NCBI GenBank assembly: GCA_964036665.1
Contig: OZ038532.1
Span: 16,820,537 to 16,884,536 of the forward strand
Source: Gordius sp. MW1
Taxonomy: Eukaryota; Nematomorpha; Gordioida; Gordea; Gordiidae
DNA: 64,000 nucleotides
Direction: 5' to 3'
This document shows positions 9,533 to 61,775 of this stretch, in pieces. The position numbers and the translations under genes were made by a program. Numbering within the stretch: the first letter of the stretch is position 1; the number at the start of each line of letters is the position of its first letter. The notes under the pieces were generated by a model. It worked only from the letters and a program-made list of their open reading frames with translations, made no database searches and was not told the origin of the DNA.

Positions 9533-9534
9533 TT

Positions 9535-9543: not shown

Positions 9544-9547
9544 AAAA

Positions 9548-13364: not shown

Positions 13365-13487
13365 CTCCGACCCAGACCTAACAAATCAAAAGAAAACCCA
13401 TACATCACATCGAGAAAAAGGCACGTGCATTGGCGCTATAAACTACTACACTAGCCACAACTCTCCGAGTGGAGCCCCGAGGATAGT

Positions 13488-14482: not shown

Positions 14483-15597
14483 TAGTGTTTCGATCTCGTC
14501 TCGTCTCGGTCTCGAAAACAAAATCTCGTCTCGTCTCGGGAGCGATTAAGAAAATCGATCTCGTCTCGTCTCGGTCTAGAAAAATCTCGGTCTCGTCTCG
14601 ACTTTTAAAAAAAATATATTCGGAATAAAAATTTCTCTTGTTTTATTAAAAATATAAATAAGTGTTCAAAAATCCAAATGGCAAATTTTATATTTTTCGA
14701 AAAACTTTAATACACAAACTTTTTAAAGATTTAGCGGGACACGACATCTCATTGACAATATAAAGATATGAATTAACTCATAAAGATAACATTTTCTATA
14801 AAAAGTGCAGACTAAAAAAACTATAGATAAATTTGAAATTTAAAAAATTAAATTTTATTGTTCTAGCAAATTATAATATTTGTATTAAATTCACTCTGTC
14901 TGTCAACTATAGGACTTCGAAAATTATAAGTTCGCTTATAGTTGATTTAGTTGCATAATTGAGCAAAATGAGACCCTTTATTAACCTTTGCTAATGCTTC
15001 AAAGTAGACCTTAACATATTTAAGGCAAATGTTTAAGTCCATTAATATAACCATCATTAATTATAGCCCATATGCATGTTTACTATAGCGCTATAAACCA
15101 CAAAGTGCGAGTGACATTTAATGATGTTATTATTATTTACAGAATTGATAACTAGTTGCACAAATTAAAACGTTGTAAAAACAACAATAAAAGCAGCATT
15201 ATTATAGAATTAAGAACATAAGGTTTAAACTTTAAATTAATGAGTACGTATTTAAATATATGACAAAAATCAACCATACTTAGGTAAATGATTGCCAAAT
15301 TTTAATTTTTTTGCAAAAATATATAATATTAACTACACTTGGGATTTTTTTTAATATCAAATATATTCCATACATATTGATTTACACTTAATACCTTAAA
15401 TGTAAATTAAAACACACAATAATTTACTAAAATCTAACGATCAATAAAAAGTCGAGATCTCGCCGAGAAAATCTAGTATCGTCTCGTCTCGACCTCAAAA
15501 TTCTCGTCTCGATCTCGACCTCAAAATTCTCGTCTCGATCTCGACTCAATTTTTCAAATTCTCGTCTCGGTTTTTTCTCGGTTTTTCCGCATCACTA
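14483..15597. mobile_element. Non-autonomous hAT element 'hAT-N', copy 1
   Basis: 1115 bp. Left end TAGTGTTTCGATCTCG, right end (reverse complement) TAGTGATGCGGAAAAACCG. The 8-bp target duplication GCAGCGAC lies at 14475-14482 and 15598-15605. The subterminal 100-130 bp at each end are packed with CTCGTCTCG-type repeats. The interior is AT-rich without coding frames. TAGTG ends, an 8-bp duplication and dense subterminal repeats all fit the hAT superfamily. Confidence 0.88.
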
Positions 15598-15714
15598 GCA
15601 GCGACATACAATAGCTCCGCTATTGCCTATTATGACCGTACACCTAAAAATGACACAGGTATTGTAAGGATATCTCAAAAAATTTACAGGTGCTAAATTA
15701 AAACTTTTTCAACC

Positions 15715-16620
15715 ACATTTTGCCCAATGGTCATTTTTTTCCATTGGTCAGCAGCCAGGACACGGTAAAAGTGGATATAAATTCATAAGAGTCAAAAAAA
15801 AAATTCGATTCACATTTTGGCCAATGGTCATTTTTTCATTGGTCAGCAGCCAGGACACGGTAAAAGTGGATATAAATTCATAAGAGTCAAAAAAAACGAA
15901 AAAAAAAATTTATTCACATTTTGGCCAATGGTCATTTTTTTTATTGGCCAGTTCCAAGAGACGGTCTATAACATGAGTCAAAAAATAACGAAAAAAATAT
16001 CTCGAATCATAATTTGGCCAATGGTCATTTTTTCCATTGGTCAGCAGCCAGGACACGGTAAAAGTGGATATGAATTCATAATAGTCAAAAAAAAACGAAA
16101 AAAATAATTTCGATTCACATTTTAACTAATGGTCATTTTTTCCATCGGTCAGGAGCCAGTGGACGGCCAAAAAGTCATAATAGCAATGGTAGTAACAGGA
16201 ACAATCATAATAGTAAAAAAAACGGAAAAAATAAACTTGGATTCACATTTTGGCCAATGGTCATTTTTTCCATCGGTCAGCAGCCAACGGACGGCCAAAA
16301 AGTCATAATAGCAATGGTAGTAACAGGAACAATCATAATAGGCGAAAAAAAGCGAAAAAATAAACTTGGTTTCACATTTTGGCCAACATTTTTTTCATTG
16401 GTCAGCCAGCACCCAACGGACGGCCAAAAAGTCATAATAGCAATGGTAGTAACAAAAACAATCATAATAGGCGAAAAAAAATCGAAAAAATAAACTTGGA
16501 TTCACATTTTGGCCAATGGTCATTTTTTTCATTGGTCAGCACCCAACGGACGGCCAAAAAGTGTTATTATCAATGGTAGTAACAAGAACAATCATAAGAG
16601 TCAAAAAAAACCCGGGATTC
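15715..16620 (+). repeat. CCAAT-hairpin minisatellite array with tRNA B-box
   Basis: About eight imperfect units of 90-130 bp. Each contains GGCCAATGG-TCATTTTTTC-CATTGGTCAGC, a stem of CCAATGG/CCATTGG, then ACGGACGGCCAAAAAGTCAT or CAGGACACGGTAAAAG and an A-rich tail. The array ends at about 16600 with the complement of GGGTTCGAATCCC, a tRNA/SINE B-box. The open frames that cross it arise from the repeat period. Reverse-oriented relatives lie at 23890-24780, 29280-31080 and 32260-32900. Confidence 0.75.
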
Positions 16621-18073
16621 GAACCCAAAAACTAGTTAAATTAATAAAAATTAAAAGTAAACAAAACAAGACATGCGGTGCATGACATTCAGTGTAGCAC
16701 GCCAAATAGCGGGACAAAACAAAAAGGAAAGTGAGCCCATAAATTGCATAGCAGTTAATATCAAAATATTAAGCAAGAATCATTATTCAGGAACATGCAA
16801 AAATATATTTTGCACTCACGTTCGATTTTACATTAAATTAAATAATCTGGAAGAGTTCAAAAAATAAAAAAAATTGCGAACTTTGGAATGGTATAATTTT
16901 TAAACAATGGATTCGGAAAGGAAAGACGTTGTGTGAGCTTATTTGGCAACGTCTCTTTTGTTAAATTCAATTTAAAAAATTAATTTTGAATAAATACTTT
17001 TTGAGTAATCATCAATCAAATAGGTGTAACTTAAAAGTTACATTGGTCCCTGTCGGGTTAACGCACTGTTTTCGTAGCTCAGATTGTAGTTCCAAAATCA
17101 CTGGTTTTAAAGCCTTCACCACATCTTAAAACGAAATCTAAAATCCTTGCATTTTATGAATTGCTTTGCTGTGTGTCCATAAAAGGCACCATGGATTTAT
17201 TCATTATTTTTAATTGATTTTAAGCCTATAATTTAATATTTGAAGAATTTGTGTTAGACTGTTTTGAGTTTTCTAATTATGTCTTGAAAACGATTTTACA
17301 TTGTTGAAAAGGACTTTGACATCGCTAATTACCCGTTATTTTGATGGTTAATTTTAAATTCGTGGTGAGTTTTTTTTTGCATTTAAATTAAAGATCTAAG
17401 GCAATGTAACATAATAACATTTTCATATTATTAAAAGGGGAGAAACAACGTCATAATTCTAATATTAATCACTTTTAACTCTTTATTACGGAAGGACCAA
17501 GTTTTATCGAGGTCTTTCGAGCAACATTGCAGGCTCATTTATTGCATTTCAAAAGCATATTTTTACTTGATCAAATAAAACTCATATCTTTTCCTCCTAA
17601 TTTAGTGGCAAACTGTAATACATTAACGCTTTTTATACCCAACGCTATATATTGCTCGCCTTCTCATTCTAAACAAAAAGCATGGCTACTACAATTTTCA
17701 CTACATATCATTGGCATAGACAAGAATTTTGTGAGGATGAAAGGTACAAAGCAGCAATCATGGGGAGGGGATGCCCCTGAAGACCATAACTTGTGAATAA
17801 TAATTTTCAGTGCATATCGCATATTCAGTCAGAATCATTATCAAAAGTCAGAACACTCTGCATAAGAAGCCCATTCCCATACACAGATATCTGTCTAAAT
17901 TGATTTAAGGAATCAATCCCATCTATATCACTTTAAAATTACTGGGTCATATAATTAATGCAACATGAGCAAAACCATAAGTGTCATGTAAAGGCTTAAC
18001 AATAATTTTATTTATGGCATTGAAATACTTAGTTCATGTTAAGAGCGATATTATATAAATAATGAATAAATTA
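16621..18073. other. AT-rich DNA between arrays and eEF1G
   Basis: Holds the right end of the piggyBac (CCCTGTCGGG then TTAA, 17048-17061). 17071-17110 resembles a tRNA A-box half (CGTAGCTCAGATTGTAG) with no matching 3' half. A plus-strand open frame at 17527-17796 (89 codons) is not recognised and shows no splice or family support. 18007-18012 reads TTTATT, giving an AATAAA polyadenylation signal for eEF1G 62 nt past its stop. Confidence 0.5.
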
Positions 18074-29127: not shown

Positions 29128-31200
29128 TATTAATTGCTATGCAATTTATGGGCTCACTTTCCATTTTTGTAACGCTGTTCGTGTCACGCACCGAATGTCT
29201 TGTCTTGCACCGAATGTCTTGTCACGCTGTTTACTTTTATTATTAATTGCTATTATTAATTTAACTAGTTTTTGGGTTCGAATCCCGGGTTTTTTTTTAC
29301 TCTTATGATTGTTCTTGTTACTACCATTGATAATAAGACTTTTTGGCCGTCCGTTGGGTGCTGACCAATGAAAAAATGACCATTGGCCAAAATGTGAATC
29401 AAAGTTGTAGAGGCTCTTTCGCACGCTACTTTCCCTTGACCCCGTCTAGGCGAATTCTAACACGTTACTTTATTTAATAGCCCCTCGCTTGTACTTAACC
29501 ATCACGTAATTTTTATTTTAATAGCCCCTCGCTTGTACTTAACCATCACGTCGGGGTCACCAAATGAAGTGGTTAAATCATTAATTGAAGAGATACTTTA
29601 GTAATGTAGTGTAAAGTATATATCAAAAAAAATGGATAATGATCCTGTTAGTTTTAAAGGTTGTGCTTATGTAGCTGCGCGAGCCCATTATCATTTGAAT
29701 AATCAGGCGATGGTTGAATACAAGCGAGGGGCTATTAAAATAAAAATAACGTGATGGTTAAGTACAAGCGAGGGGCTATTAAAATAAAAATAACGTGATG
29801 GTTAAGTACAAGCGAGGGGCTATTAAATAAAGTAACGTGTTAGAATTCGCCTAGACGGGGTCAAGGGAAAGTAGCGTGCGAAAGAGCCTCTACAAAGTTT
29901 TTTTTCGTTTTTTTGACTATTATGATTGTTCCTGTTACTACCATTGCTATTATGACTTTTTGGCCGTCCGCTGGCTGCTTGAAAAAAATGACCATTGGCC
30001 AAAATGTGAATCAAAATTATTTTTTTTGTTTTTTTTGGCTAACATTGACAATTACCCTATGCCCTCCCCTAGCAAAGCCTATGCCTCTACTGATATGGGT
30101 CCCTGTGCCCCCCCCCCCTAAAAAATCTTATGCCTCTCCTGATGTGGGTTCGAATCCCGGAGAGGTTAAATTTTTTTTATTTTTTTTGTTTAAATTAATA
30201 TATTGTTCTTGTTAATACCATTGATAATAAGACTTTTTGGCCGTCCATTGGCTGCTGACCAATGGAATGGAATGACCATTGGCCAAAATATGAATCGCAA
30301 TTATTTTTTTCGTTTTTTTGACTATTATTTATTAATTGCTATGCAATTTATGGGCTCACTTTCCATTTTCCGATGTCTTGTCACGCTCTTCGGTGTCTTG
30401 CACCGAATGCTTATCACACCCCGAATGTCTTGTCACGCTGTTTACTTTTATTATTAATTGCTTATATTAATTTAACTAGTTTTGGGGTTCGAATCCCGGG
30501 TTTTTTTTTGACTCTTATGATTGTTCTTGTTACTACCATTGATAATAAGACTTTTTGGCCGTCCGTTGGGTGCTGACCAATGAAAAAAATGACCATTGGC
30601 CAAAATGTGAATCGCAATTATTTTTTTCGTTTTTTTTACTATTATAATTATTCCTGTTACTACCATTGCTATTATGACTTTTTGGTCCGCTGGCTGCTGA
30701 CCGATGGAAAAAATGACCATTGGCCAAAATGTGAATCGAAATTATTTTTTAAGTTTTTTTTGACTCTTATGAATTTATATCCACTTTTACCGTGTCCTGG
30801 CTGCTGACCAATGGAGAAAAATGACCATTGGCCAAACTGTGAATCGAAACTTTTTTGTTCGTTTTTTTTGACTCTTATGAATTTATATCCACTTTAACCG
30901 TGTCCTGGCTGCTGACCAATGGAAAAAATGACCTTTGGCCAAAATGTGAATCGAAAATTTTTTTTTCGTTTTTTTTTGATTCTTATGAAATTATAGACTG
31001 TCCGCTGTCTGCTGACCAATGCAAAAAAATGATCTTTGGCCAAAATGTGGTTGAAAAAGTTTTAATTTAGCACCTGTAAATTTTTTGAGATATCCTTACA
31101 ATACCTGTGTCATTTTTAGGTGTACGGTCATAACAGGCAATAGCGGAGCTATTGCATGTCGCTGCTTGTTTCGTCGCAAGCCCATTTAATTCAATTTTTT
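29128..31200 (-). repeat. Long CCAAT-hairpin / B-box array, third locus
   Basis: Built from units that start GCTATGCAATTTATGGGCTC (29138, 30340). They pass through CACCGAATGTCTTGTCACGC and a B-box GGTTCGAATCCCGGG (29276, 30148, 30488) into reverse-oriented GCTGACCAATG..TGACCATTGGCCAAAATGTGAATC hairpin units. The right end (31070-31190) carries GGCAATAGCGGAGCTATTGC and the GCAGCGAC motif, the mirror of 14400-15720. The LTR palindrome at 29406-29894 interrupts it. The B-boxes suggest a tRNA-derived SINE ancestry, but no intact A-box with correct spacing is visible. Confidence 0.7.
29406..29894. mobile_element. Palindromic gypsy LTR insertion (two U3 ends)
   Basis: Starts TGTAGAGG and ends CCTCTACA, so both termini are the same (U3) end of the gypsy LTR described at 9193. 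The forward LTR fragment spans 29406-29551. It is joined to a reverse-strand primer-binding site (29546-29562, complement of TGGTGACCCCGACGTGA), then a complete reverse LTR (29565-29894). A 4-bp repeat AAGT flanks it (29402-29405 and 29895-29898), the same length as the target duplication of the full element, so it looks integrase-inserted. The junction shares TCACGT between the LTR repeat and the primer site. Confidence 0.8.
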
Positions 31201-39345: not shown

Positions 39346-41379
39346 CCTATCCCTATTAACAAATACGACATCCATCAATCGTTAACCCTTAATTTGTGAG
39401 TTGTACTTTTGTAGGCTGACTCGAATTCTTTTAAAACATATGAACATACGATTATAAAATTAAATTTGCATAATGTTAGAATGAGTATAAATATAAAAAG
39501 CTATAAATAGAACAATATTTAACAACTTAAAAAAAATGCATGAATGTGATAGATTATTTTATATTGAAGTATAAATGGATAATATTGCAGTTTTCTTTGT
39601 AAGGTAAGAATGGCCCAATATTTATTAATATAAGAATATAATAGAATATTGTAAATCAGAGTGTAAATTGTATAATATGCCAGCTTTTAAAGTCAATTTA
39701 AACGCTGAAGTGATATAATTATAGCCGTAAACTAATTTTAATCCCAAATTCTTACATTTAACGTTGTATCCACTTTGTATGCAACATTCATCCTAAAAAA
39801 GCTGAGTAAAGCCGCCAGCATCTGTTATTAATCACAACTTTTTTAGAAATACACTTAAAAAATTTTAATTATAAATTTAGTGGGGGTCAGAAATAATTAC
39901 ACCCTTCAAAAAAATCAAATATTGCTGCAGACTGTGCTGATCTTTTATAGGTTCCCCCGCATAATCCCGAAAACGCAGAATCCCGAATTGCGAAACTACG
40001 TTTTTCCGCCATTTTCACATATGGAAAATTTGGAAAACTCTTTAACTATTGCAAATCAAGATAATAAAGAGAATATAAGTAAGCTTTATTATGCAAGTAT
40101 ACACATATTGTTATAGGTTTTAAAAAATCTAAAGAAAAAATGATATAGTCACTTTCAAAAAGTTTGGTAAGATGGGACAAGTATACTGTAATTGCAGCAC
40201 TACAGTATATGTAAATGCCCAGGAAGAGCTGTCCATAGATATAATAATTTCTGATAACATCAGAACATTCCCAAAATTGTATACAAAAACAAAATCTCCA
40301 AAGTAAGAAACTTAAAAGTTTTTTAATACAAATTTAGCTTTGAATGAAAAAACAAAGTGTTATGGTTATAGAAAATATCATAGAAAATCAAGAAAGTAAG
40401 ATATGTCTAACCCTAACCCTAAGGTGCAATTTTATTAAACTCAGTGGATGATATATAATACCAAGTAATGTCACGTGATTTATCATAGACATTAACTGTT
40501 AGTTACTATTAACTATTAAATTTATTGTAAATAGATTCTAACAATAATGATGCGTAGATGCATGACCAAACATGAATTAAGTATCAAATATATGAAACAG
40601 ATCAGAAAAGAAGAAAATTATCCTATGAGAAAATTTGGACTTAAAGCTTGATTACATTTATTTATTACATCCAATAAAGATAATATCAATTGTATTAGTT
40701 CTAATTAAGTCTATATACATAAGCTAAATATTTGTTTAAATAGTTTTCTAAGCTTAAGCTTTATAAAGTTTGTCAATGATATAACAGAATTTACATTAAC
40801 TCTTTTTTCATATAGTATAACCCTAACCCTATATAAGATTACTTATGAGATGTTAGTAATGTCACATAATTGATTATCATAGACTATTAACTGTTAGTTA
40901 CTATTAACTAGTGTTGTAAAAACGGCTGGCTGGTTTTTCCCAGCGTATTGCTAAGCTTAGTTGTTGGCGTTTTTTTTCACCCAACCTTTTCAGTGTTAGG
41001 TGAATTTTCTTGGGAGGGCTTTGGCGTTTGGCGTTTTCGTAAAAAACACCCAAAGCGTTTTGGGTGTTTTTTTTTGGGGCACCTTTGGCGTTTAGGTTTG
41101 GGTGTATTAAAGAGCTAAAGGGTTTGGGTGGATAATATTATTAACCTTTTGGTTTAGTTTTGGTCGTTTTGGGTTGGGCATACAAATATATCAATTTGTT
41201 TATCATATTTGTGTATTTAGATTTAGGTAATGAACTTTTAATTTAAGAAAATAAAAATAAATGTATCATGACGTCACAATCTAGTAAATTCAGTAAATTA
41301 TAATTAATTATTATGCATTATAGAAGTAGGTAGTAAATTAATATGTTTTATTTATGAAAAAAATTTGTGAAGATTTGCC

Positions 41380-43110
41380 CCCCCCCCCTTATTTTTTACC
41401 CTCTTTCTCACCTGGGGAGGAACGGCGGGCAGGTGGGGTGTTTGCCCCCCCCCCCCCCCTAATTTTTTACCCTCTTTCTGGTGCGGGGGAGAGGGGGGCA
41501 TTTTGCCCCCCCCCCCTAATTTTTTACCCTCTTTCTGATGCGGGGGAGAGGGGGGTGTTTTGCCCCCCCCCTAATTTTTTACCCTCTTTCTGATGTGGGG
41601 GAGAGGGGGGCATGGGGGGTGTTTTGCCCCCCCCCCCCCCACCTAATTTTTCACCCTCTTTCTGATGTGGGGGAGAGGGGGGGGGCATGGGGGGTGTATT
41701 GCCCCCCTGTCCCCCCTACTTTTTTACCCTCTTTCTGATGCGAGGGAGAGGGGGGTGTTTTGCCCCCCGCCACCTAATTTTTTACCCTCTTTCTGATGTG
41801 GAGGAGAGGGGGGGCATGGGGGGTGTATTGCCACCCCCCCCCCCTAATTTTTTACCCTCTTTCTGATGCGAGGGAGAGGGGGGCAATGGGGTGTTTTGCC
41901 CCCCCCCCCTAATTCTTTACCCTCTTTCTGATGCGGGGGGCAGGGGGGTGTTTTGCCCCCCCCTAATTTTTTACCCTCTTTCTGATGCGGGGGGGGGGGG
42001 GGGGGCAGGGGGGTGTTTTGCCCCCCTCCCCCTAATTTTTTACCCTCTTTCTGATGCGAGGAAAAGGGGGGTGTTTTGCCCCTCCCCCTAATTTTTTACC
42101 CTCTTTCTGATGTGGGGGAGAGGGGGGCATGGGGGGTGTTTTGCCCCCCCCCCCCGAATTTTTTACCCTCTTTCTGATGCGAGGGAGAGGGGGGGGGGCA
42201 GGGGGTGTTTTGCCCCCCTCCCCCCTAATTTTTTACCCTCTTTCTGATGCGGGGGAGAGGGGGGGCAGGGGGTGTTTTGCCCCTTCCTAATTTTTTACCC
42301 TCTTTCTTAAGTGGTGGAGAGGGGGCAGGGGGTGTTTTGTCCCCCCCCTCCCCCCTAATTTTTTAACCCTCTTTCTGATGCGAGGAAAAGGGGGGTGTTT
42401 TGCCCCTCCCCCTAATTTTTTACCCTCTTTCTGATGTGGGGGAGAGGGGGGCATGGGGGGTTTTTGCCCCCCCCCCCCCAATTTTTTACCCTCTTTCTGA
42501 TGCGAGGGAGAGGGGGGTGGAAGGGGGGTGTTTTGCCCCTTCCTAATTTTTTACCCTCTTTCTTAAGTGGGGGAGAGGGGGCAGGGGGTGTTTTGTCCCC
42601 CCCCCCTCCCCCCTAATTTTTTTACCCTCTTTCTTAAGTGGGGGAGAGGGGGCAGGGGGTGTTTTGTCCCCCCCCCCTCCCCCCTAATTTTTTACCCTCT
42701 TTTTGATGTGGAAGAGAGGGGGGGCATAGGGGGTGTTTTGCCCCCCCTAATTATTTACCCTCTTTCTGATCCGGAGGAGAGGGGGGCATGGGGGGTGTTT
42801 TGCCCCCCCCCCAATTTTTTACCCTCTTTCTGATGCGGGGGAGAGGGGGGGGGGGGCAGGGGGGTGTTTGGCCCCCCTCCCCCCTAATTTTTTACCCTCT
42901 TTCTGATGCGAGGGAGAGGGGGCTGGCAGGGGGGTGTTTTACACCTCCCCTAATTTTTTACCCTCTTTCTGATGCGGGGGAGAGGGGGGGGGCATGGGGG
43001 GTGTTTTGTCCCCCCCCCCCTTATTTTTTACCCTCTTTCTGATGCCGGGGAGAGGGGGGGGGGTGAATCGGCCCTCTTCTTATTTTTTACTCTCTTTCTC
43101 ACCCGGGGGG
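41380..43110. repeat. G/C-run minisatellite, left arm of foldback copy 1
   Basis: About two dozen units of 55-75 bp: a C-run of 7-15, TAATTTTTTACCCTCTTTCTGATG, then GGGGGAGAGGGGGGCATGGGGGGTGTTTTG. Each GGGGGG-TGTTTTG-CCCCCC can close as a hairpin, and several G-runs per unit permit quadruplexes. The Pro/Gly-rich open frames crossing it are by-products of the period. Confidence 0.9.
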
Positions 43111-44409
43111 GGGGACCGGAAAGCCCTTTTTAACCCTTTCAAAATATTTTTGTGAATTTTTGCGGTCACGGTGGTGACAAATGTCATAATCAACATTTTA
43201 TATTGAAATTAGTATTTTTTTTGAAAATAGACTTCTTATATTTATGTTCTACTATTATAAAAAATATTTTTGGGAAGATTTGCGGTCACAGTGGAGACAA
43301 ATGTCTTAATCAACATTTTCTATTGAAATTTTTTTTTTTTTTGAAAATTGATTTATTATATGACAAAGATTTTCTAATATTCGAAAATATATTTTTGAAG
43401 ATTTGCGGTCAACAATTGTCTTAATATACCATATCAATTAAAATAAATTTTTTAATTTAACTTCATTTAAGAATAAGCTGTATTATTAAATATAATATTA
43501 ATATGAAATTTTACCAATTTAAAAAAATTTGCCATCACGGGTGAGTAAGTTTTACTATTTAAGTTATCTGGGCATTTAATGGAAAAACTTAAGGTATTTC
43601 CAAAAAGCATATCATGCTATTAATTACTATGCTTTCACAAGACAAGGCACCAACACTCTACGTCCTGTTGACTTAGACCTCGCGTTTATAATGCTAAGGA
43701 TCATAAAAAAAATCGGACTTTTCTGAGTAACAAAAATGAGTTAAGCATCTTAATTAAAATTGTTGCTTATTATTTAATAAGAAACTTAATTTTCTTATTG
43801 CTTATGACTTAATTAGTAGTTGACATAATAAAAAAAAGTTTAATTTTCATTAATTTTATTTATAATAATATGATTCGCAACTTCTACATACCTTGATATG
43901 TTACGTTAAAAAAGAAATGAATGTAAAATGATGTAATAAAGAGCCTAGCCAGCCCACGCCACACCATGCCTTGTTGTGCCATGATTTTTTTATATATTTA
44001 GTTTAGTACTTATCTTAAATCTGATAGGTTGCGCATGCATTGCAACGAGAAAGGGAGAGAGAGGGTGGATTAGTACATGAACATGTACATGATACATGGG
44101 AGTGGTGATATGTCGAGTCGCGCGGTATGCCGTTCTCTCATATTGAAAATATAGTTTAAATATAAAATAAAAGGGATATTATATAATTAATAAGTCTTTA
44201 TCTTTTACAAGAGGCGAGGAATTCAAAATATATTTAAATTAAATTTTGTGATTAAAATTGCTATTGCCGGGAATATTTAAATGGGGGTCTGTTAGCTGTC
44301 ATTAATTTAGAATGAATTAAAATATTAATTTTTAATTGAAGGATTGAATTCAAAATCTGCTCTCGAATGGCCAGATAAATCTCACTTTATAATCGTTTTC
44401 TATTTATTG
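43111..44409. other. Core of foldback copy 1
   Basis: Begins with three ~115-bp repeats around GATTTGCGGTCACAGTGG and CAACATTTTCTATTGAAATT (43140-43420), then unique AT-rich DNA and a short GAGAGAGAGGGTGG stretch near 44055. It is nearly identical to 57235-58590 in the second copy. No coding frame or transposase motif is visible. Confidence 0.7.
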
Positions 44410-45590
44410 AAAACACCCCACCTGCACCCCTCTCCCCCGCATCAGAAAGAGGGTAAAAAATTGGGGGGGGGGGGGGGGGGAGGGGGCAAAACACCTCCTG
44501 CCCCCCTTCTCCCTCGCATCAGAAAGAGGGTAAAAAATTGAGGGGGGGGGGCAAACATCCCCCATGCCCCCCCTCTCCCCCGCATTAGAAAGAGGGTAAA
44601 AAAGGGGGGGGGGCAAAACACCCCCCATGCCCCCCCCCCCTCTCCCCCACATTAGAAAGAGGGTAAAAAATAGGGGGGGGGGGCAAAACACCCCCCATGC
44701 CTCCCTCTCGCCCGCATTAAAAGAGGGTAAAAAATTAGGGGGGGGGGCAAAACACCCCCCATGCCCCCCTCTCCCCCGCATTAGAAAGAGGATAAAAAAT
44801 TAGGGGGGGGCAAAACACCCCTTGCCCCCCCCCCTCTCCCTCGCATCAGAAAGAGGGTAAAAAATTAGGGGGGGGGGGCAAAACACCCCCCATGCCCCCC
44901 CCCCTCCCCGCATTAGAAAGAGGATAAAAAATTAGGGGGGGGGGAGGGGCAAAAGACTCCTTGCCCCCCTCTCTCCCTCGCATCAGAAAGAGGGTAAAAA
45001 ATGGGGGGGGGGGCAAAACACCCCCCATGCCCCCCTCTCCCCCGCGGCAAAACACCCCCATGCTTCCCTCTCCCCCGCATTAAAAAGAGGGTAAAAAACT
45101 AGGGGGGGGGGCATAACACCCCCCCATGCCCCCCTCTCCCCCGCATTAGAAAGAGGATAAAAAATTAGGGGGGGGGGGGCAAAACACCCCCTGCCCCCCC
45201 TCTCCCTCGCATCAGAAAGAGGGTAAAAAATTGGGGGGGGGGGCAAAACACCCCCCATGCCCCCCCTCTCCCCCGGACCAGAAAGAGGGTAAAAAATTAG
45301 GGGGGGGGGCAAAACACCTCCTATGCCCCCCCCTCTCCCCCACATCAGAAAGAGGGTAAAAAATTAGGGGGGGGGGCAAAACACCCCCCATGCCCCCCTC
45401 TCCCCCACATCAGAAAGAGGGTAAAAAATTAGGGGGGGGGGCAAAACACCCCCCATGCCCCCCCCCCTCTCCCCCGCATCAGAAAGAGGGTAAAAAATTA
45501 AGGGGGGGGGGCAAACACCCCACCTGCCCGCCGTTCCTCCCCAGGTGAGAAAGAGGGTAAAAAATAAGGGGGGGGGCAAATCTTCACAAA
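44410..45590. repeat. G/C-run minisatellite, right arm of foldback copy 1
   Basis: The same unit as the left arm in reverse orientation (CATCAGAAAGAGGGTAAAAA then a G-run, GCAAAACACCCCCCATGCCC), in about 17-19 units. It is shorter than the left array, so the arms have changed length independently. Confidence 0.9.
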
Positions 45591-46617
45591 TTTTTTTCAT
45601 AAATAAAACATATTAATTTACTACCTACTTCTATAATGCATAATAATTAATTATAATTTACTGAATTTACTAGATTGTGACGTCATGATACATTTATTTT
45701 TATTTTCTTAAATTAAAAGTTCATTACCTAAATCTAAATACTCAAATATGATAAACAAATTGATATATTTGCATGCCCAACCCAAAACGACCAAAACTAA
45801 ACCAAAAGGTTAATAATATTATCCACCCAAACCCTTTAGCTCTTTAATACACCCAAACCTAAACGCCAAAGGTGCCCCAAAAAAAACACCCAAAACGCTT
45901 TGGGTGTTTTTTACAAAAACGCCAAACGCCAAAGCCCTCCCAAGAAAATTCACCTAACACTGAACTGAAAAGGTTGGGTGAAAAAAAACGCCAACGCTTG
46001 CAGGCAACCAATAGAAACCCTTGGTTTTTTACAACACTACTATTAACTATTAAATTTATTATAAATAGATTCTAACAATAATGATGCGTAGATGCATGAC
46101 CAAACATGAATTAAGTATCAAATCTAAGAAACAGATCAGAAAAGAAGAAAATTATCCTATGAGAAAATTTGCACTTTACATTTATTTATTACATCCAATA
46201 AAGATAAAATCAATTGTATTGTAGTTCTAACTAAATAAACATAATCTAAATATATATTTAATATAATAGTTTTCTAAGCTTAATGATTCCAACAACTTCA
46301 ACTAATGATTTCATATTTTCTAACCTAGAAATATTTATTTTTCTTAGTAAGGTTACTTGTGAGATGTCATTCTATCATTTTTAAAATAATGATTCCAAAC
46401 TTCAACTAATGATTTCATATTTTCTAACCTAGAAATAATTTATTTTTCTTAGTAAGGTTACTTGTGAGATTTCATTCTATCATGATTTCATATATAAATG
46501 TTAAAATGAAACCAATTGAAAAATATCATATGGTAATTTCAAATCGTAGCCATAGCCTTATCGTAGTTTCGGGATTGTGCGGTTTCGGGAATATGCGGGG
46601 TTCCCCTTTTATAATAT

Positions 46618-48075
46618 AGAAAATAACAGTTTCTAACCCTAAAAATCTTAAACATGACAATAACATTTTGGTAAATATTACAAATTTAAAAATAACTTAG
46701 TTTCTATTCCTAAAAATATATATAAACATGACATTTTGGTATGTATTACAAATCTTAAGCTTAAATACTTATATTGTACACATTTTGTGAAATTTGAAAA
46801 TAACATAGTTTCTAATCCTAGAAAATAAACATGACAATTTGGTATGTATTACAAATCTTAAACTTAAATACTTATACTATAAACATTTTGGGAAATTTGA
46901 AAATAACTTAGTTTTTAACCCTAAAAATCTATAGAAACATGACATTTTGGTATGTATTACCAATTTTTAGCTTATATACTTATACTGTACACATTTTGAG
47001 AAATTTGAAAATAACTTAGTTTCTAATCCTAAAATATAAACATGACATTTTGGCATGTATTACAAATCTTAAACTTAAATACTTAAACTGTACACATTTT
47101 GGGAAATTTGAAAATAACTTAGTTGCTAATCCTAAAAAATAAACATGACATTTTGGTATGTATTTCAAATCTTAAACTTAAATACTTAAACTGTACACAT
47201 TTTGGGAAATATGAAATTAACTTAGTTTCTAATCTTAAAAATCTATATAAACATGACATTTTGGTATGTATTACAAATCTTAAACTTAAATACTTATACT
47301 GTACACATTTTGGGAAATTTGAAAATAACTTAGTTGCTAATCCTAAAAAATAAACATGACATTTTGGTATGTATTACAAATCTTAAACTTAAATACTTAC
47401 ACTGTACACGTTTTGGGAAGTTTGAAAAAAACTTAGTTTCTAATCCTAAAAAATAAACATGACATTTTGGTATGTATTACAAATCTTAAACTAAAATACT
47501 TACACTGTACACATTTTGGGAAATATGAAAATAACTTAGTTTATAATCCTAAAAATTTATATAAACATGACATTTTGGGCATGTATTACAAATCTTAAAC
47601 TTAAATACTTACACTCTACACATTTGGGGATTTTGAAAATAACTTAGTTTTTAATCCTAAAAATCTATATAAACATATCATTTTTGTATGTATTACCAAT
47701 TTTTAACTTATATGCTTATACTGTACACATTTTGAGAAATTTGAAACTAACTTAGTTTCTAATCCTAAAATACAAACATGACATTTTGATATGTATTACA
47801 AATCTTAAACTTAAATACTTATACTGTACACATTTTGGGAAATTTGAAAATAACTTAGTTTCTAATCCTAGAAAATAAACATGACATTTTGGTATGTATT
47901 ACAAATCTTATACTTAAATATTTATACTGTACACATTTAGGGAAAAATAACTTAGTTTCTAATCTTAAAAAATAAACATGACATTTTGGTAGGTATTACA
48001 AATCTTTAACTTAAATACTTAAACTGTACACATTTTTGAAATTTTAAAATAACTTAGTTTCTAATCCTAAAAATC
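46618..48075. repeat. ~103-bp AT-rich satellite, about 14 units
   Basis: Unit core: AACATGACATTTTGGTATG, TATTACAAATCTTAAACTTA, TACTGTACACATTTTGGGAA, AAATAACTTAGTTTCTAATC. It continues into both units of the tandem duplication, and reverse copies lie at 38545-38790. Confidence 0.92.
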
Positions 48076-48649
48076 TATTATCGTGTCCGGAGATACGAGT
48101 ACGATAAGAGGATAATATCTCCCCCCCCCATGTTCATTTATACAAAGGGACGCCGACGTTACACGTATCTCCCTTTCTGATTAATTTCAGTACGCGTGTT
48201 GATTCCCCCCCCCCCCAACGCGCATATACGACACGTATATGATAATACGCGAGAATGTAGTCTACGACACCAACTGCCTTTCCTGGCCATGCTATTTAAT
48301 GTGTAGTTGTAGTACATAAAACTTTATTCCTTTACATTTAATTTCTAGTACGTTTTCCCCCCCCCCTGACGCGCTTATACGTTTGTGTTATTTATTTCTC
48401 CCCATATATGATTGTTTATCAACATGAATACGGATGAGTGATTTTGATATACGCGTGTCATCGTATGGATAATATTGATATCGTTCATTAATATAATTTT
48501 CCTGGTTTTATAATTAACTAGATGAACCCGGCAAACGTTGTTTTGCCATTTACCAGGGTGTATTAAATTATGTTGGAATTTTAGGGCATATATGATCATA
48601 AAGCGGTTATTGAAGTAAAAATAAAGGTTGATGTCTATATGTTCTACTT

Positions 48650-51600
48650 CTATTGTTCTATTTCCGTATACAGTGCAACGCCTACGAATACAACATAACG
48701 CAATAATAAATCAAAAAAGTAAACATTTAAAAATGATACCACAGAACATACCGCACTAATAATATATTGGCAAGACAGGTGATCATCGCAATGCGAGAGG
48801 ATATACGACATTTTTAGTTTTTCCATCAGGTGCGAAAATGAACAGATTTCTCGGTGTGCCAACTCTGGAGCAAAACATATAATTGACCATGTGAAAAACA
48901 TGGTTTTTCTAAATTCAATCCAGCAACGCTTAGTGATTGTCCGAGCTTTATTGATTGTAATTGCAAAAGCTAAGCGCACAGGAAACTGTAGGCGCTTGAA
49001 TTCGAAGGGCAAATCGGTTGGAAGCATTGGAATGCGCGGAATCAGTACATCTTCTTCTTTACTTTTGCCGCTGATGATTGTCGCTTCAATGACGTTTGGC
49101 AGTAGTTGTTTTACCGCAAGTCTAGTTCCGTTACACAGCTAAGGTTGATTTAAATTGCGAAGGATCATTATAGGTGAACCAATTTTCAGAGTCTATTTGT
49201 GAGGTGGCATTCCCGATGGTTCTAATGAATTTAGAAATTCAGTTGGATAATTCACCGCCTGATCTGCATCGATAACTGTGTCAACAGATGTGTAAGTAAA
49301 TGGTTCACCGGGAATGTTCAATAAAATGCGATTATTTATTTTGTTCACGTCGTCATTCTTCGGAGCCAAGATAGCCCGTTCACAAAGCCAGTCGTGATTT
49401 GTAAAGTTAATTACAATTTCCGGGAACACCATATTTACGACATCTTCAATTGATGACTGTATTTTGCAAAAGTGCGATGGAAATGATATTTCGTGCGTTG
49501 AGGGTTCAATTGGAAATTTACCGTTTCCCAAGTCCAACAGTTGGTTAGCAAATGGTTGCGCCGAATCATCTTGAATTAAATGAACACGCATGTTGGTGGT
49601 TAGCGTGAATATCTTCACACTTCTCCAAAGATATGACGCTTTCAGGCAAGCATTGAGCTCATCTGAGGGTGTTGACTTTGGGACTGGCAAGGATTGACGG
49701 AAGTCACCGGCTAGCAGCAAGAGCTCCTCCCATAGGACGTGCAATCTGTCTCAAATCTCGGAGTGTACCATCCAGCGCCTCGAGTGCTTTTTTATGTGCC
49801 ATCGTACATTCATCCCAAATGATGATTGTGCATGTCTTTAGTACCGTGGCAATACCCGAGTTTCTGCTGATGTTGCAAGTAAGAGTTTCATTTATATTTA
49901 GATTCAATGGGAGTTTGAAAGTTGAATGCGCTGTGCGGCCTCCATCGAGTAACGTGGCTGCTATGCCCGATGACGCGACAGCGAGAGCTATCTTATCATT
50001 TCTCCGAATTTCAGCCAATATCAGATTAAGAAGAAATGTTTTTCTGGTTCCTCCTGGCGCATTTAGGAAAAGTAGGCCTCCGTTACCGTTTGTGACGTAT
50101 TTCATGACGGTGGTATAGGCATATTTTTGGTCAGCGACTAAGAGTATATCCTGAGCGTTAACAAACAATTGTAGCTGAGCCACGTCGTAATGTTTTTCAC
50201 GCCATAAGTCACTGTCGTGATCATTGCTTCTATCACGTCTAGGTGCAGACAATTCGAGCTGACATAACATTTTATTGTTTATGGATAGACATATGTCCTC
50301 AAGTAATATAAGAGCTCGATTAAAGATGTCCTCGGAAAATGGTATCTCCATATCCGGATGCACTCTACGTACTCGTAAAAGGATATCTTCACTGAGGCTT
50401 TCTTTGTGTGTATCCCAAAGATCTTTTGGATTAGATGGTGCGCAAGTTGTCAAAAAGATCGCAAATAAAGTGCGTATTTGGTGCTGGAGACGTATGAGCG
50501 ATGCTTCCTCTAATGTCGTATTCCAATGTCGGTCATTTTCAAGCAAACGAAGTTTGAGACATGCTTGTCTATATGTGTCACACACGTCACCATAGATGGT
50601 TCTAATGGATTGAAATGATGTTGGTCCTTTGACATTGTGGAGCAACATTCTTAAAAAATAACATTCGGCGTTATTATGATGAACAGTATACATTCGACCC
50701 AAAGCATCAGACATACGTACGCTTGAATTTCCAGGAACTATCGTGCCCTGTTTTCTTCTTTGAAACACATTTTTTGATAAGTTCCAAGTGTAATAATTTG
50801 GGATTTCGTGGTAGAGCAAAGTTTTTGCGAAAACATTATTTTGGAACAACAGGAAAAAAGCTGTCAGTGTTGTATTAGGTGGTTGCGCCGCTCTTTGTAC
50901 AGCGTTCTCTTCCGTGAAGTAGACACGTTGGCCATTTTCCAAGTGAACGGCGAGATGTACAACAGTTGGATAGCGTTCGTGAATAGGGAACCCGAGAATG
51001 CGCCAGACAGCTTCATTAGTGCTGATATAACGTCCCATTTGAAATTGTGTGATTTCATCGGCTTGCGTATTAGTAAGTCCAAAAACTGCCATATCACTTG
51101 CCTTTGGTGACGTATTTGCAGATGTATTTTATAGATTTCACTGAATTGCAATACTCCACGTTTATGTGGGCCTTGAACATTTTTGAAAGCAACGGAGTGT
51201 AAGGGACGATCCATCTATTGTCGATTTCTACGGGAACAGTTTTCACTTTGATGGTGAATCTATGACCTCCATCGTTTGGATTACGGCGTCTATACCGCGG
51301 ACAGCCGTCGCCACCAGTTTTAGTTTCTAGGCTCATTTCTCTGGGATATTTTTTGGTGCATTTTCCGTCTTTCATACATGGTGAATCTCTATTCATTGCG
51401 ACTGATGATTTCAAATAGTAGCGGATCTTCTTGTGGATCGGGGTTCAGCCGATATAATATTATCAATATGAGTAGGAAATATTTTGTCCTTCAGCCAAAT
51501 TAGGATGTGAGCGTGTGGTAAGCCTCTTTTTTGCCATTCTATGGAATATAGCCAGCGGATAGTTTCTCCGTAAATGTGATCTTTGGTGATGACATCGATG

Positions 51601-54776: not shown

Positions 54777-55194
54777 ATAATCAGAATATAATAATAACCC
54801 CTTTCAGGAGTGCCGCAATTAACTTAAAAGTTTACCCTAATTAGCGCCATCTATAGGCGATTTTAATTAGAGACTAATTTGAACTATATATATCCCTATC
54901 TTTTTTAGTGACTTCGAAATGATAACAGACATAACGTTTTCGCTCTTATTAGAGCTCATCAGTACATACTGATGAGCTCTAAATAAGAGCGAAAACCTAT
55001 GGCATACTGATGAGCTCTAATAAGAGCGAAAACGTTATATGTCTGTTATCATTTTCGAAGTCACATGCTAAAAAAGATAGGGATATATATAGTTAAAATT
55101 AATCTCTAATTAAAATCGCCTATAGATGGCGCTAATTAGGGTAAACTTTGATTGCGGCACTTTTGAAAGGGGTTATTATTATCTCCTGATTAAA
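54777..55194. repeat. ~420-bp palindromic MITE, copy 1
   Basis: A long inverted repeat from TAATCAGAATATAATAATAA to its complement ending CTGATTA. Arm landmarks: ACCCCTTTCAGGAGTGCCGC, TTACCCTAATTAGCGCCATC, CGAAATGATAACAGACATAA, AGAGCTCATCAGTA. It can form a cruciform. It is part of the duplicated block. Confidence 0.8.
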
Positions 55195-55939
55195 CTTAAC
55201 TACTTTCACTGTACACATATTGGGAAATTTGAAAATAACTTAGTTTCTAAGCCTAAAAATCTATATAAGCATGACTATCATATGTATGTATCACAAATCT
55301 CAAACTTAATACTTATACTCTACACATTTGGGGATTTTGAAAATAACTTAGTTTTTAATCCTAAAAATCTATATAACATATCATTTTTGTATGTATTACC
55401 AATTTTTAACTTATATGCTTATACTGTACACATTTTGAGAAATTTGAAACTAACTTAGTTTCTAATCCTAAAATACAAACATGACATTTTGATATGTATT
55501 ACAAATCTTAAACTTAAATACTTATACTGTACACATTTTGGGAAATTTGAAAATAACTTAGTTTCTAATCCTAGAAAATAAACATGACATTTTGGTATGT
55601 ATTACAAATCTTAAACTTAAATACTTATACTGTACACATTTTGGGAAATTTAAAAATAACTTAGTTTCTAATCTTAAAAAATAAACATGACATTTTGGTA
55701 TGTATTACAAATCTTTAACTTAAATACTTTAACTGTACACATTTTGGGAAATTTGAAAATAACTTAGTTTCTAATCCTAAAAATCTATTATCGTATCCGG
55801 AGATACGAGTAGGATACGAGGATAATATCCCCCCCCATGTTCATTTATACAAAGAGACGTCGACGTTACACGTATCTCCCTTTCTAATTAATTTCAGTAC
55901 GCGTGTTGATTCCCCCCCCCCAACGCGCATATACGACAC

Positions 55940-58900
55940 TAGTGTTGTAAAAACGGCTGGCTGGTTTTTCCCAGCGTATTGCTAAGCGTAGTTGTTGGCG
56001 TTTTTTTTTCACCCAACCTTTTCAGTGTTAGGTGAATTTTCTTGGGAGGGCTTTGGCGTTTGGCGTTTTCGTAAAAAACACCCAAAGCGTTTTGGGTGTT
56101 TTTTTTGGGGGCACCTTTGGCGTTTAGGTTTGGGTGTATTAAAGAGCTAAAGGGTTTGGGTGGATAATATTATTAACCTTTTGGTTTGGTTTTGGTCGTT
56201 TTGGGTTGGGCATGCAAATATATCAATTTGTTTATATTGTTCATCATATTTGTGTATTTAGATTTAGGTAATGAACTTTTAATTTAAGAAAATAAAAATA
56301 AATGTATCATGACGTCACAATCTAGTAAATTCAGTAAATTATAATTAATTATTATGCATTATAGAAGTAGGTAGTGAATTAATATGTTTTATTTATAAAA
56401 AAAAATTTGTGAAGATTTGCCCCCCCCCCTTTTTTTTACCCACTTTCTGATGCGGGGGAGAGGGGGTGTTTTGCCCCCCCCCCCTAATTTTTTACCCTCT
56501 TTCTGATGCGGGGGAAAGGGGGGTGTTTTGCCCCCCCCCCCCCCAATTTTTTACCCTCTTTCTGATGTGGAAGAAAGGGGGGGCCCTGGGGGGTGTTTTG
56601 CCCCCCCCCCTAATTTTTTACCCTCTTTCTGATGTGGGGGAGAGGGGGGCAGGGGGGTGTTTTGCCCCCCCCCTAATTTTTTACCCTCTTTCTGATGTGG
56701 GGGAGAGGGGGGGCATAGGGGGTGTTTTGCCCCACCCCCCAATTTATTACCCTCTTTCTGGTCGGGGGGAGAGGGGGGGGCGGGGGTGTTTTGCCCCCCC
56801 CCCCAATTTTTTACCCTCTTTCTGATGCGAGGGAGAGGGGGGCAGGGGGTGTTTTGCCCCCCCCCCCCCTAATTTTTTATCCTCTTTCTAATGCGGGGGA
56901 GGGGGGGGGGCATGGGGGGTGTTTTGCCCCCCTTCCTAGTTTTTTACTCTCTTTTTAATGCGGGGGAGAGGGCGGCATGGGGGGGTGTTTTGCCCCCCCC
57001 CCCCCCCCCCAATTTTTTACCCTCTTTCTGATCCGGGGGAGAGGGGGGGGGGGCATGTTTTTTACCCTCTTTCTGATGCGAGGGAGAGGGGGGGGGGCAA
57101 AGGGTGTTTTGCCCCCCCCCCCCCACTTTTTTACCCTCTTTCTGATGCGAGGGAGAGGGGGGGCAGGGGGGTGTTTTGCCCCCCCCCCCCACCTAATTTT
57201 TTACCCTTTTTCTGATGTGGGGGAGAGGGGGGGGATGAATTGTCCCTCTTCTTATTTTTTACTCTCTTTCTCACCCGGGGGGGGGACCGGAAAGCCCTTT
57301 TTAACCCTTTTAAAATATTTTTGTGAATTTTTGCGGTCACGGTGATGACAAATGTCATAATCAACATTTTCTATTGAAATTAATATTTTTTTTGAAAATA
57401 GACTTATTATATTTATGTTCTACTATTATAAAAAATATTTTTGGGAAGATTTGCGGTCACAGTGGTGACAAATGTCTTAATCAACATTTTCTATTGAAAT
57501 TTATATTTTTTTTTTGAAAATTGACTTATTATATGACAAAGATTTTCTAATATTCGAAAATATATTTTTGAAGATTTGCGGTCAACAATTGTCTCAATAT
57601 ACCATATCAATTAAAGTAAATTTTTAATTTAACATTATTTAAGAATAAGCTGTATTATTAAATATAATATTAATATGAAATTTTACCAATTTAAAAAAAT
57701 TTGCCATCTAAGTAAGTTTTACTATTTAAGTTATCTGGGCATTTAATTAAAATACTTAAGGTATTTCCAAAAAGCATATCATGCTATTAATTACTATGCT
57801 TTCACAAGACACCAACACTCTACGTCCTGTTGACTTAGACCTCGCGTTTACAATGCTTATAAGGATCATAAAAAAATAGGACTTTTCGGAGTAACAAAAA
57901 TGAGTTAAGCATCTTAATTTAAATTATTGCTTATTATTTAATAAGAAACTTAATTTTCTAATTGCTTATGACTTAATTAGTAGTTGACATAATAAAAAAA
58001 GTTTAATTTTCATTAATTTTATTTATAATAATATGATTCGCAACTTCTACATACCTTGATATGTTACGTTAAAAAAGAAATGAATGTAAAATGATGTAAT
58101 AAAGAGCCTAGCCAGCCCACGCCACACCATGCCTTGTTGTGCCATGATTGTTTTATATATTTAGTTTAGTACTTAACTTAAATCTGATAGGTTGCGCATG
58201 CATTGCAACGAGAGAAGAAAGAGAGAGGGTGGATTAGTACATGAACATATACATGCTACATGGGAGTGGTGATTTGCCGAGTCGCGCGGGATGCCGTTCT
58301 CTCATATTGAAAATATAGTTTAAATATAAAATAAAAGGGATATTATATAATTAATAAGTCTTTATCTTTTACAAGAGGCGAGGAATTCAAAATATATTTA
58401 AATTAAATTTTGTGATTAAAATTGCTATTGCCGGGAATATTTAGATGGGGGTCTGTTAGCTGTCATTAATTTAGAATGAATTAAAATATTAATTTTTAAT
58501 TGAAGGATTGAATTCAAAATCTGCTCTCGAATGGCCAGATAAGTCTCACTTTATAATCGTTTTCTATTTTTTGAAAACACCCCACCTGCACCCCTCTCCC
58601 CCGCATCAGAAAGAGGGTAAAAAATTAGGGGGGGGGGCAAAACTACCCCCATGCCCCCCCCCCTCCCCCGCATTAGAAAGAGTGTAAAAAATTAGGGGGG
58701 GGGAACAAAACAACCCCTGCCCCCCTTCTCCCTCGCATCAGAAAGAGGGTAAAAAATTGGGGGGGGGGGGGGCAAAACACCCCCCATGCCCCCCCCCTCT
58801 CCCCCGCATTAGAAAGAGGGTAAAAAGGGGGGGGGGCAAAACACCCCCCATGCCCCCCTCTCCCCCGCATTAAAAAGAGGGTAAAAAACTAGGGGGGGGC

Positions 58901-59761
58901 AAAACACCCCCTGCCCCCCTCTCCCTCGCATCAGAAAGAGGGTAAAAAATTGGGGGGGGGGGGCAAAACACCCCCCATGCCCCCCCTCTCCCCCGGACCA
59001 AAAAAGGGTAAAAAATTAGGGGGGGGGGGGGGGCAAAACACCCCCTATGCCCCCCTCTCCCCTACATCAGAAAGAGGGTAAAAAATTAGGGGGGGGGGCA
59101 AAACACCCCCCATGCCTCCCCCCCTCTCCCCCACATCAGAAAGAGGGTAAAAAATTAGGGGGGGGGGGGGCAAAAAACCCCCCTCTCCCCCGCATCAGAA
59201 AGAGGGTAAAAAAATAGGGGGGGGGGGGCAAACACCCACCTGCCCGCCGTTCCTCCCCAGGTGAGAAAGAGTGTAAAAAATAGGGGGGGGGGCAAATCTT
59301 CACAAATTTTTTTTTATAAATAAAACATATTAATTCACTACCTACTTCTATAATGCATAATAATTAATTATAATTTACTGAATTTACTAGATTGTGACGT
59401 CATGATACATTTATTTTTATTTTCTTAAATTAAAAGTTCATTACCTAAATCTAAATACACAAATATGATGAACAATATAAACAAATTGATATATTTGCAT
59501 GCCCAACCCAAAACGACCAGAACCAAACCAAAAGGTTAATAATATTATCCACCCAAACCCTTTAGCTCTTTAATACACCCAAACCTAAACGCCAAAGGTG
59601 CCCCCAAAAAAAACACCCAAAACGCTTTGGGTGTTTTTTACGAAAACGCCAAACGCCAAAGCCCTCCCAAGAAAATTCACCTAACACTGAAAAGGTTGGG
59701 TGAAAAAAAACGCCAACGCTTGCAGGCAACCAATAGAAACCCTTGGTTTTTTACAACACTA
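55940..59761. mobile_element. hAT-type foldback element, copy 2
   Basis: 3822 bp, same TAGTGTTGTAAAAACGGCT ends, with the 8-bp target duplication TACGACAC at 55932-55939 and 59762-59769. Arms: outer ~470 bp, minisatellite 56418-57230 and 58590-59300, core 57235-58590. It is shorter than copy 1 because both arrays hold fewer units, while the outer arms and core are nearly identical to copy 1. Confidence 0.92.
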
Positions 59762-60335
59762 TACGACACGTATATGATAATACGCGAGAATGTAGTCTAC
59801 GACACCATCTGCCTTTCCTGGCCATGCTATTTAATGTGTAGTTGTAGTACATAGAACTTTATTCCTTTACATTTAATTTCTAGTACGCGTATGTTATTCC
59901 CCCCCCCGACGCGCTTATACATTTATGTTATTTTTTTCTCCCCATATATGATTGTTTATCAACATGAATACGGATGAGTGATTTTGATATACGCGTGTCA
60001 TCGTATGGATAATATTGACATCGTTCATTAATATAATTTTTCTTCTTGGTTTTATAATTAATAAACTAGATAAATCTATCATGTAAGGTGTAGCAAAAAT
60101 TAAGTATACCCTTATCGGGAAAAGGCTTTAAGCCCGGCCATCTCCCAATAACTTTCCTTATTTATTACAATAGATGCCTGATGATTTCTCTCCCTTCCCT
60201 TCTAAACCTATTTATTTAAATCGTATTCCTTCCAGGAATCCGATATCTATATAAACATTGCATTTTGCTATATATTACAAATCTTAAACTTAACTATATT
60301 AGAAATAAGTAAATGAATTGCGGGTTTTTCGATAA

Positions 60336-60788
60336 TAATCAGAAGGTAATAATAACCCCTTTCAGGAGTGCCGCAATTAACTTAAAAGTTTTTAGCGCGA
60401 TCTATAGGCGATTTTAATTAGAGACTAATTTGAACTACATATATATATCCCTATCTTTTTTAGTGACTTCGAAAATGATAACAGACATATAACGTTTTCG
60501 CTCTTATTAGAGCTCATCAGTATGCCATAGGTTTTGCTCTTATTTAGAGCTCATCAGTATGCCATAGGTTTTCGCTCTTATTTATAGCTCATCAGTATGT
60601 ACTGATGAGCTCTAATAAGAGCAAAAACGTTATATGTCTGTTATCATTTCAAAGTCACATGCTAAAAAAGATAGGGATATATATAGTTCAAATTAGTCTC
60701 TAATTAAAATCGCCTAGGCGCTAATTAGGGTAAACTTTTAAGTTAAATGCGGCACTTTTGAAAAGGGTTATTAGTATCTTCTGATTAA
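60336..60788. repeat. Palindromic MITE, copy 2
   Basis: Sister of 54777-55194. Its loop holds additional copies of the AGAGCTCATCAGTATGCCAT..CGCTCTTATTT module, so the hairpin tip has been amplified. Confidence 0.8.
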
Positions 60789-60940
60789 CTTAACTACTTT
60801 CACTGTACACATTTTGGCAAATTTGAAAATAACTTAGTTTCTAAGCCTAAAAATCTATATAAGCATGTATCATATTTATGTATTACAAATCTCAAACTTA
60901 AATACTTATACTGTACACATTTAAGGATTTTGAAAATAAC

Positions 60941-61775
60941 TTTCTTAAACCCTAAAAATCAATATAAACATGGCATTTTGCTATGTATAACAAATTTTTT
61001 GCAAATTATTTTATTTGTTAATATTCAACAAATGAGTGATAGTCCTAATCTGAGTATAAAAACAAAAAGTAAATCATGGGCTTATAAATACTATATATAT
61101 ATATGTTATTAATGACTTAATTAATATTTAATTATTAACTTACTAGCAATATTATTTATATCTAATGTTTGCAGAGGCCCAGCAATGCACCCATAATTTG
61201 GATAAGCTATATAATATTTTAAAATTAGTTAAACTTTAAACATTTTACACTTTAAAATTTTGAAATGAAGGGGAGGTGAGATTAGGTAAGTTTAGGTGAG
61301 ATTAGGTGGTTGTTCGGCTGACTGGTTGTGGGTTGATTTGAAAGGCTTGTGGACGGTATTTTCCCAAAATACAATGGGACAAAATACAAATAGCTTGAAA
61401 CGGTTTCAAGATCTTGAAACCGTTTTAAGATCTTATAATGCGCATGGGTATGCATTTAACAGACCAATCAGATAGCTGCGCATTTTAATGATGCGCATGC
61501 GTATGCATTTAACAATTTTTGCTGCACTATAAAACTCTAAGGGACAGGGTTAAGGTTCAGGGTAGTGTTTTAGGTCAGCGTTTTAGGTTAGGGTTAGGAT
61601 TAGATGCACATCAAATTCCCTCCCTATTTGAGATTTAATTTTCCGTGATATTGAGTGTGGCATTTTGGACTGTAACCATTATATTTTGTCTCATTGAATT
61701 TTGGTTTACGCATGAATCCTTGTTTCCCCAGCATGGGTACCTCTGTGCATACACACCTACGTTGTTTTAAACAAA
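60941..61775. other. AT-rich DNA upstream of LRRC57
   Basis: 61265-61305 repeats AGGTGAGATTAGGT. A perfect 28-bp palindrome lies at 61398-61425. GATGCGCATG(C/G)GTATGCATTTAAC-like words occur twice (61437, 61479). 61555-61650 is a partial GGTTAGGGTTAG-bearing MITE, also found at 39180-39280. The LRRC57 promoter presumably lies here; no element stands out. Confidence 0.45.

Follow-up and report, generated by a model that had tools for sequence, protein, structure and literature searches.

The contig OZ038532.1 of Gordius sp. MW1 (assembly GCA_964036665.1) contains, between positions 16,820,537 and 16,884,536, a 64,000-bp stretch of DNA, hereafter the window, in which an earlier note had picked out a giant hAT-type foldback transposon with quadruplex-prone arms. 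The question raised by this locus is whether the 5131 bp concerned (copy 1, window 40909-46039, with TAGTGTTGTAAAA at both ends) are a mobile element and, if so, what moves it. Our analyses identified a genuine, recently mobile family of foldback elements, which we consider to be non-autonomous cut-and-paste transposons that are very probably moved in trans by a hAT transposase. Such a transposase, made elsewhere, would recognise the TAGTGTTGTAAAA ends, which recur at thousands of further genomic positions. The features of the window on which this analysis rests are as follows.

40901..40908, no strand: left target duplication of copy 1, CTATTAAC, exact 8 bp
40909..41377, plus strand: left outer arm of copy 1, first bases TAGTGTTGTAAAAACGGCTGG (similarity search, best 40 of 645 candidates scored, 96-100% identical)
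41378..43120, plus strand: left minisatellite array, 27 unit anchors with 26 spacings of 54-73 bp
43121..44410, plus strand: core of ~1.3 kb separating the arrays (similarity search, best 40 of 739 candidates scored, 94-100% identical)
44411..45576, minus strand: right minisatellite array, in inverted orientation to the left array, with 16 unit anchors
45577..46039, minus strand: right outer arm of copy 1, TAGTGTTGTAAAAAACCAAGGG inward from the outer end, inverted relative to the left arm
46040..46047, no strand: right target duplication of copy 1, CTATTAAC, exact 8 bp
48227..48234, no strand: paralogous empty target, TACGACAC in single copy (alignment with the joined flanks of copy 2)
55940..59761, plus strand: second copy of the element (copy 2; 3822 bp), TACGACAC duplicated at 55932-55939 and 59762-59769

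The ends, coordinates and 8-bp duplication of copy 1 proved to be exactly as the earlier note had given them. Its description of a 5.1-kb inverted repeat holds for the arms and arrays, which are inverted, but not for their continuity, as the core intervenes and the two ends differ over their outermost ~75 alignment columns, except for the terminal 13-14 bases. The outer arms (~470 bp) include 354 nt that are complementary at 95%, with 4163 nt in between, and the unit of the arrays consists of alternating G runs and C runs. One additional right-side unit anchor, at 44066, is a chance match inside the core (17 anchors were counted on that side). No reading frame of at least 110 residues was present in a stop-to-stop listing of the core, apart from one array frame that touches the core edge. 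Similarly, no Rfam family reached its gathering score in the element, and a functional RNA was rejected since all 16 matches at E values up to 0.1 were below gathering and confined to the arrays.

Copies, ends and targets across the genome

The searched genome comprises 212 Mb in 12 contigs. In it, TAGTGTTGTAAAA occurs 5208 times (2608 and 2600 on the two strands) versus 50 (25 and 25) for a reversed control pattern, and a chance origin is therefore excluded genome-wide. The window has four exact matches, which coincide with the ends of copies 1 and 2; at up to two mismatches the count is 7 against 4.7 expected, showing no excess of degenerate matches. Longer sequences from the foldback were equally well represented, with none found for any of the controls: the left-end 33-mer at 269 places (131 and 138; up to one mismatch), the right-end 32-mer at 170 (86 and 84; up to one mismatch), the junction of arm and array at 116 and 110 (up to two mismatches) and a 30-mer of the unit at 1163 and 1235 (up to one mismatch). 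On the contigs C1-C4, 57 of the 96 exact left ends have a correctly oriented exact right end at most 12 kb away (229-9880 bp). The 27 copies that were tabulated are 3771-6435 bp in length, and in a core-less copy of 2286 bp (C1:23058583) the arms meet almost directly. Similarity searches with the left arm, right arm and core, in which the best 40 of 605-739 candidates were scored each (645 candidates for the left arm and 739 for the core), also returned many copies sharing the same ends, as sought by the earlier note in proposing a search with the outer arm.

Both ends were read in 25 elements, made up of 20 whose right ends were fetched, copies 1 and 2 of the window, and the core loci L062, L065 and L066. 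An exact 8-bp duplication flanks 24 of them, including 19 of the fetched elements, both window copies and all three core loci. Empty sites, whose listing along with that of the duplications had been proposed in the earlier note, were found as well and are paralogous, not allelic. The joined flanks of copy 2 align with window 47993-48517 at 93.8% over 536 columns, and a target in repeated host sequence that is common to three copies (discussed below) was found, with its duplication counted once, at seven further exact places and two with one mismatch (control 0). The claim of a foldback transposon is thus supported by many copies that have the same ends, duplications and empty paralogous sites. 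A self-nest was identified at C5:21511593-21519242, where the left end at 21516594 has CTAAGGAT as its flank and follows 1500 bp of element sequence that runs to the counterpart of window base 43701, indicating that one copy was inserted into the core of another. As the outer left end of the nest (21519242) shares its duplication with the sole right end, part of the nest appears to have been lost.

Target preference was assessed over 22 sites, leaving out copy 2 of the window (L067) and the second and third copies at the repeated host target; the background for the p-values was the composition of the flanks (69% A+T), with L016 dropped because its flank is element sequence. Read by its commonest bases, the target is C T A C G T A C, with counts at positions 2 to 7 of 15 (T), 15 (A), 12 (C), 11 (G), 10 (T) and 17 (A) and p-values of 0.0013, 0.0013, 3e-5, 2e-4, 0.19 and 5e-5, respectively. 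The target preference of the element is therefore nTAcgTAn. The family, which has many copies, also appears to be young, judging from the seven copies of its youngest subfamily, whose 1291-bp core has three substitutions, each in a single copy, and no gap columns. When the array flanks are included the same alignment has 297 gap columns, 193 of which lie within G/C runs of at least 5, runs that occupy 1016 of its 4334 columns; sequencing error could contribute in part to these differences in run length.

The ends and targets bear directly on the type of transposase. hAT elements have the end rule (C/T)A(A/G)NG and the target rule nTnnnnAn. The terminal TAGTG, found in both window copies and in all 30 left-arm loci, fits the former on sequence, and T at position 2 (15/22) together with A at position 7 (17/22) fits the latter. 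A uniform 8-bp duplication is also as expected of hAT elements, and hAT dimerisation domains are abundant in this genome (the best 150 of 3413 candidates were scored). Short elements of ~150-210 bp (L001-L006) have the same TAGTGTTGTAAAAACGGC end and no arrays, and because of that end they plausibly share the foldback's mobiliser. Their 8-bp flanks are imperfect by eye, which suggests older insertions. A 42-base end of the miniature inverted-repeat transposable element (MITE) type occurs at 83 places, the closest facing pair, by eye, being ~13 kb apart on C8. Exons recognised by eye as twitchin-like and ABC-transporter-like, in the loci L008 and L003 of these listings, mark the genome as that of an animal.

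Several points weigh against a hAT assignment or reduce the force of the duplications. TTTTACAACACTA was found downstream in none of 40 hAT loci sampled (3' sides, from the 150 scored of 3413 candidates), and none of the 68 scored hAT matches on C1-C4 was inside a paired copy or less than 15 kb from a listed left end. The genome also has the P-type RNase-H domain PF21787 (76 matches of 114 candidates), and target position 6 was not significant. Among the 25 elements one, C5:19831937, has no duplication (CTATATAT versus CATATATA), and two duplications sit within microsatellites (GTAT/ATAC), in which matches come cheaply and the proof is slight. Lastly, the three copies at one common target may not be independent insertions because their host sequence is 97-98% alike over ~1.4-1.5 kb. 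Searches for eight hAT domains by tblastn in the window and loci L001-L068 gave nothing at an E value of 1e-3. At up to two mismatches the 40 hAT loci gave a single match to the end, TTTTACATCATTA in L119, which we attribute to chance, and two further hAT loci (L099 and L105) have short near-matches with one mismatch in nine bases. The hAT type claimed in the earlier note thus draws support from the terminal motif and the preferred target, but not from an autonomous hAT with the same ends. As no transposase between such ends turned up among the loci sampled, the label is what we infer as best, rather than a demonstration. By eye, among the loci listed, several Ac-like hAT families seem to end in TAGAGG-type sequence, and hAT loci such as L089, L098 and L103 have tandem GGGTCGGGTTCGGGTTGAAAA-type repeats just inside an apparent 3' end of that type.

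Arrays within the element and beyond it

In the 27 tabulated copies the arrays span ~328-2730 bp on the left and ~758-1693 bp on the right. In the five copies in which both outer arms were read, there were no fixed differences between left and right arms past the first ~75 alignment columns. At four of the 12 variable arm columns both arms of copy 1 share one state, and in each of the other four copies both arms have a different one; the remaining eight columns are private to single arms or common to a few. As both arms carry the same subfamily substitutions, the most economical view is that an element's two arms are copied from each other. This could occur by gene conversion or template switching, aided by arm pairing, and the G/C-rich arrays may lengthen and shorten via slippage and unequal exchange. 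The arrays would accordingly be a product of foldback behaviour and not a coding device. With copies as nearly identical as these, one could measure directly how arms are homogenised, how run lengths slip and how palindromes are deleted.

The evidence for quadruplexes in the arrays is mixed. Canonical G-quadruplex motifs number six on the G-rich strand of the left array and eight on that of the right, with one on the other strand of each, so that there are 16 in ~2.9 kb of arrays (both strands) versus seven in the other 55 kb of the window. Compared with dinucleotide shuffles, the eight motifs on the G-rich strand of the right array stand out (3.4 in shuffles) and were reached in 0 of 500, whereas the six of the left array (4.4 in shuffles) were reached in 120 of 500. 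The folding of a typical unit does not surpass that of its shuffles (z -0.48). The quadruplex and hairpin arms proposed in the earlier note thus have partial support, from the density of motifs and the right G-rich strand, but the left array and the folding of the unit are ordinary. The strong structure of the element is the pairing of arm with arm, which is common to any foldback.

Units were also found apart from the foldback ends. Exact unit 30-mers on C1, whose listing is complete to 21.7 Mb, form 24 clusters, and all 17 that have both orientations converge (plus, then minus). In 11 of the 24 clusters, the listings show neither a foldback end (left or right) nor an arm junction at a distance of up to 9 kb, and six of these 11 are palindromic:

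C1:2731134-2732139: convergent unit array without a listed end or arm within 9 kb
C1:5089918-5090835: the same
C1:18458890-18459960: the same
C1:7960194-7965845: further array of this kind
C1:16882463-16887139: further array of this kind
C1:20115747-20116241: further array of this kind

For this comparison, 51 of the 100 listed terminal inverted repeat places were entered, and the verdicts on the clusters are independent of them. Possibly, the convergent arrays without listed ends represent a further family of elements that shares these arms. They also bear on a different view of the whole system, in which the palindromic array of G runs and C runs is a module present in at least two kinds of element and the hAT-ended family is merely its commonest carrier. 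We regard this as a tentative and rather unlikely alternative, for which the 11 clusters and their six palindromes speak, but decayed ends would have escaped a listing that was restricted to exact matches for units and ends and to at most one mismatch for arm junctions. Somewhat less probable still, in our estimation, is that the array is itself the mobile module, occurring between hAT-type ends in at least 100 copies as well as in palindromes that lack such ends. If so, arm arrays would be exchanged between transposon families, or would spread by hairpin-driven copying in addition to transposase.

Other origins for the foldback family

Apart from movement of a single foldback family by a hAT transposase, which we prefer, three other origins were considered. 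A Galileo-like foldback of the P superfamily, moved by a P-type transposase, is improbable. P elements do give 8-bp duplications and the PF21787 domains lie in the same genome, but the ends of the element are TAGTG versus the CA of P elements, and its target is AT-flanked versus the GC-rich target of the latter. The resemblance in architecture is to Galileo, whose inverted arms are long and repetitive inside according to the portions of the reports available (PMC2775673, PMC3573991). At one locus, C3:8112886-8113101, a match to the P-type transposase domain adjoins a foldback left end; that foldback probably landed in a P-type copy.

Members of the Mutator superfamily have a MULE transposase and duplications of 8-11 bp. 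We give a Mutator-type origin very little credence, as the duplication is constantly 8 bp in 24 copies and both the end and the target are hAT-like. In its favor, most foldbacks are seemingly of Mutator type, although exceptions exist, and Tetris, with duplications of 8-10 bp, was assigned there by its authors, as stated in the part of that report consulted (PMC4079207). The idea of an assembly artefact or local duplication, raised by the general difficulty of assembling G/C homopolymer arrays and palindromes, is very unlikely to hold because copies of different lengths, with identical ends, occupy different targets on many contigs with their own duplications and empty sites.

Neighboring repeats and known foldback elements

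The window also holds other repeats. Tandem repeats of ~103-105 bp lie around both foldback copies (46281-48073, 55190-55783 and 60787-60995), and copy 2 is located in one of two related repeat blocks. A Gypsy-like element with integrase and RNase H frames occupies 9193-13800, and its flanking repeats (9193-9505 and 13487-13800) hold 44-bp tandem repeats that recur inverted at 29405-29895. An inverted pair of minisatellite arrays (15597-16760 and 30330-31166; units of ~95-130 bp, 79-84% alike) may form another foldback or be a pair of separate copies. On the minus strand there are PIF1-helicase frames, probably of a Helitron, at 49193-51128 and DDE_Tnp_1_7 (piggyBac-type) frames at 6708-7945.

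In the open-access literature, in which the older foldback papers are scarce and which was searched by titles and the openings of abstracts, we found no description of a hAT-type foldback, including one with minisatellite arms. The suggestion of the earlier note that such an element is undescribed is therefore not contradicted there, but the foldback architecture itself is known, and the new family is best viewed as a variant of that architecture, likely a hAT-ended one. Foldbacks are known to cause chromosome rearrangements, and the literature consulted places them in the Mutator or P superfamilies. An abundant and young family with hAT-type ends and minisatellite arms would show that the foldback architecture has arisen in a further superfamily.

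The inverted arms of short tandem repeats seen here are also a feature of FB of Drosophila melanogaster, TU of sea urchin and TFB1 of Chironomus. TU has 8-bp duplications as well and may be nearest. Galileo of Drosophila, as far as the available portions of the reports describe it, resembles the present element in its long inverted arms, tandem repeats that expand and contract and non-coding foldback-like copies, but it belongs to the P superfamily, has a known transposase and has different ends (PMC2775673, PMC3573991). The nearest in build, on the basis of the part of its report consulted, is Tetris of Drosophila virilis, a foldback with an outer arm domain, variable-number tandem repeats, a non-coding middle and an end sequence in common with a MITE, all of which apply to the present element as well (PMC4079207). 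No transposase was found for Tetris, nor, among the loci sampled, for the present element. Tetris has repeats of ~220 bp and only three structurally complete copies, whereas the element described here has units of 54-73 bp composed of G and C runs, more than 100 copies, a constant 8-bp duplication and hAT-like ends.

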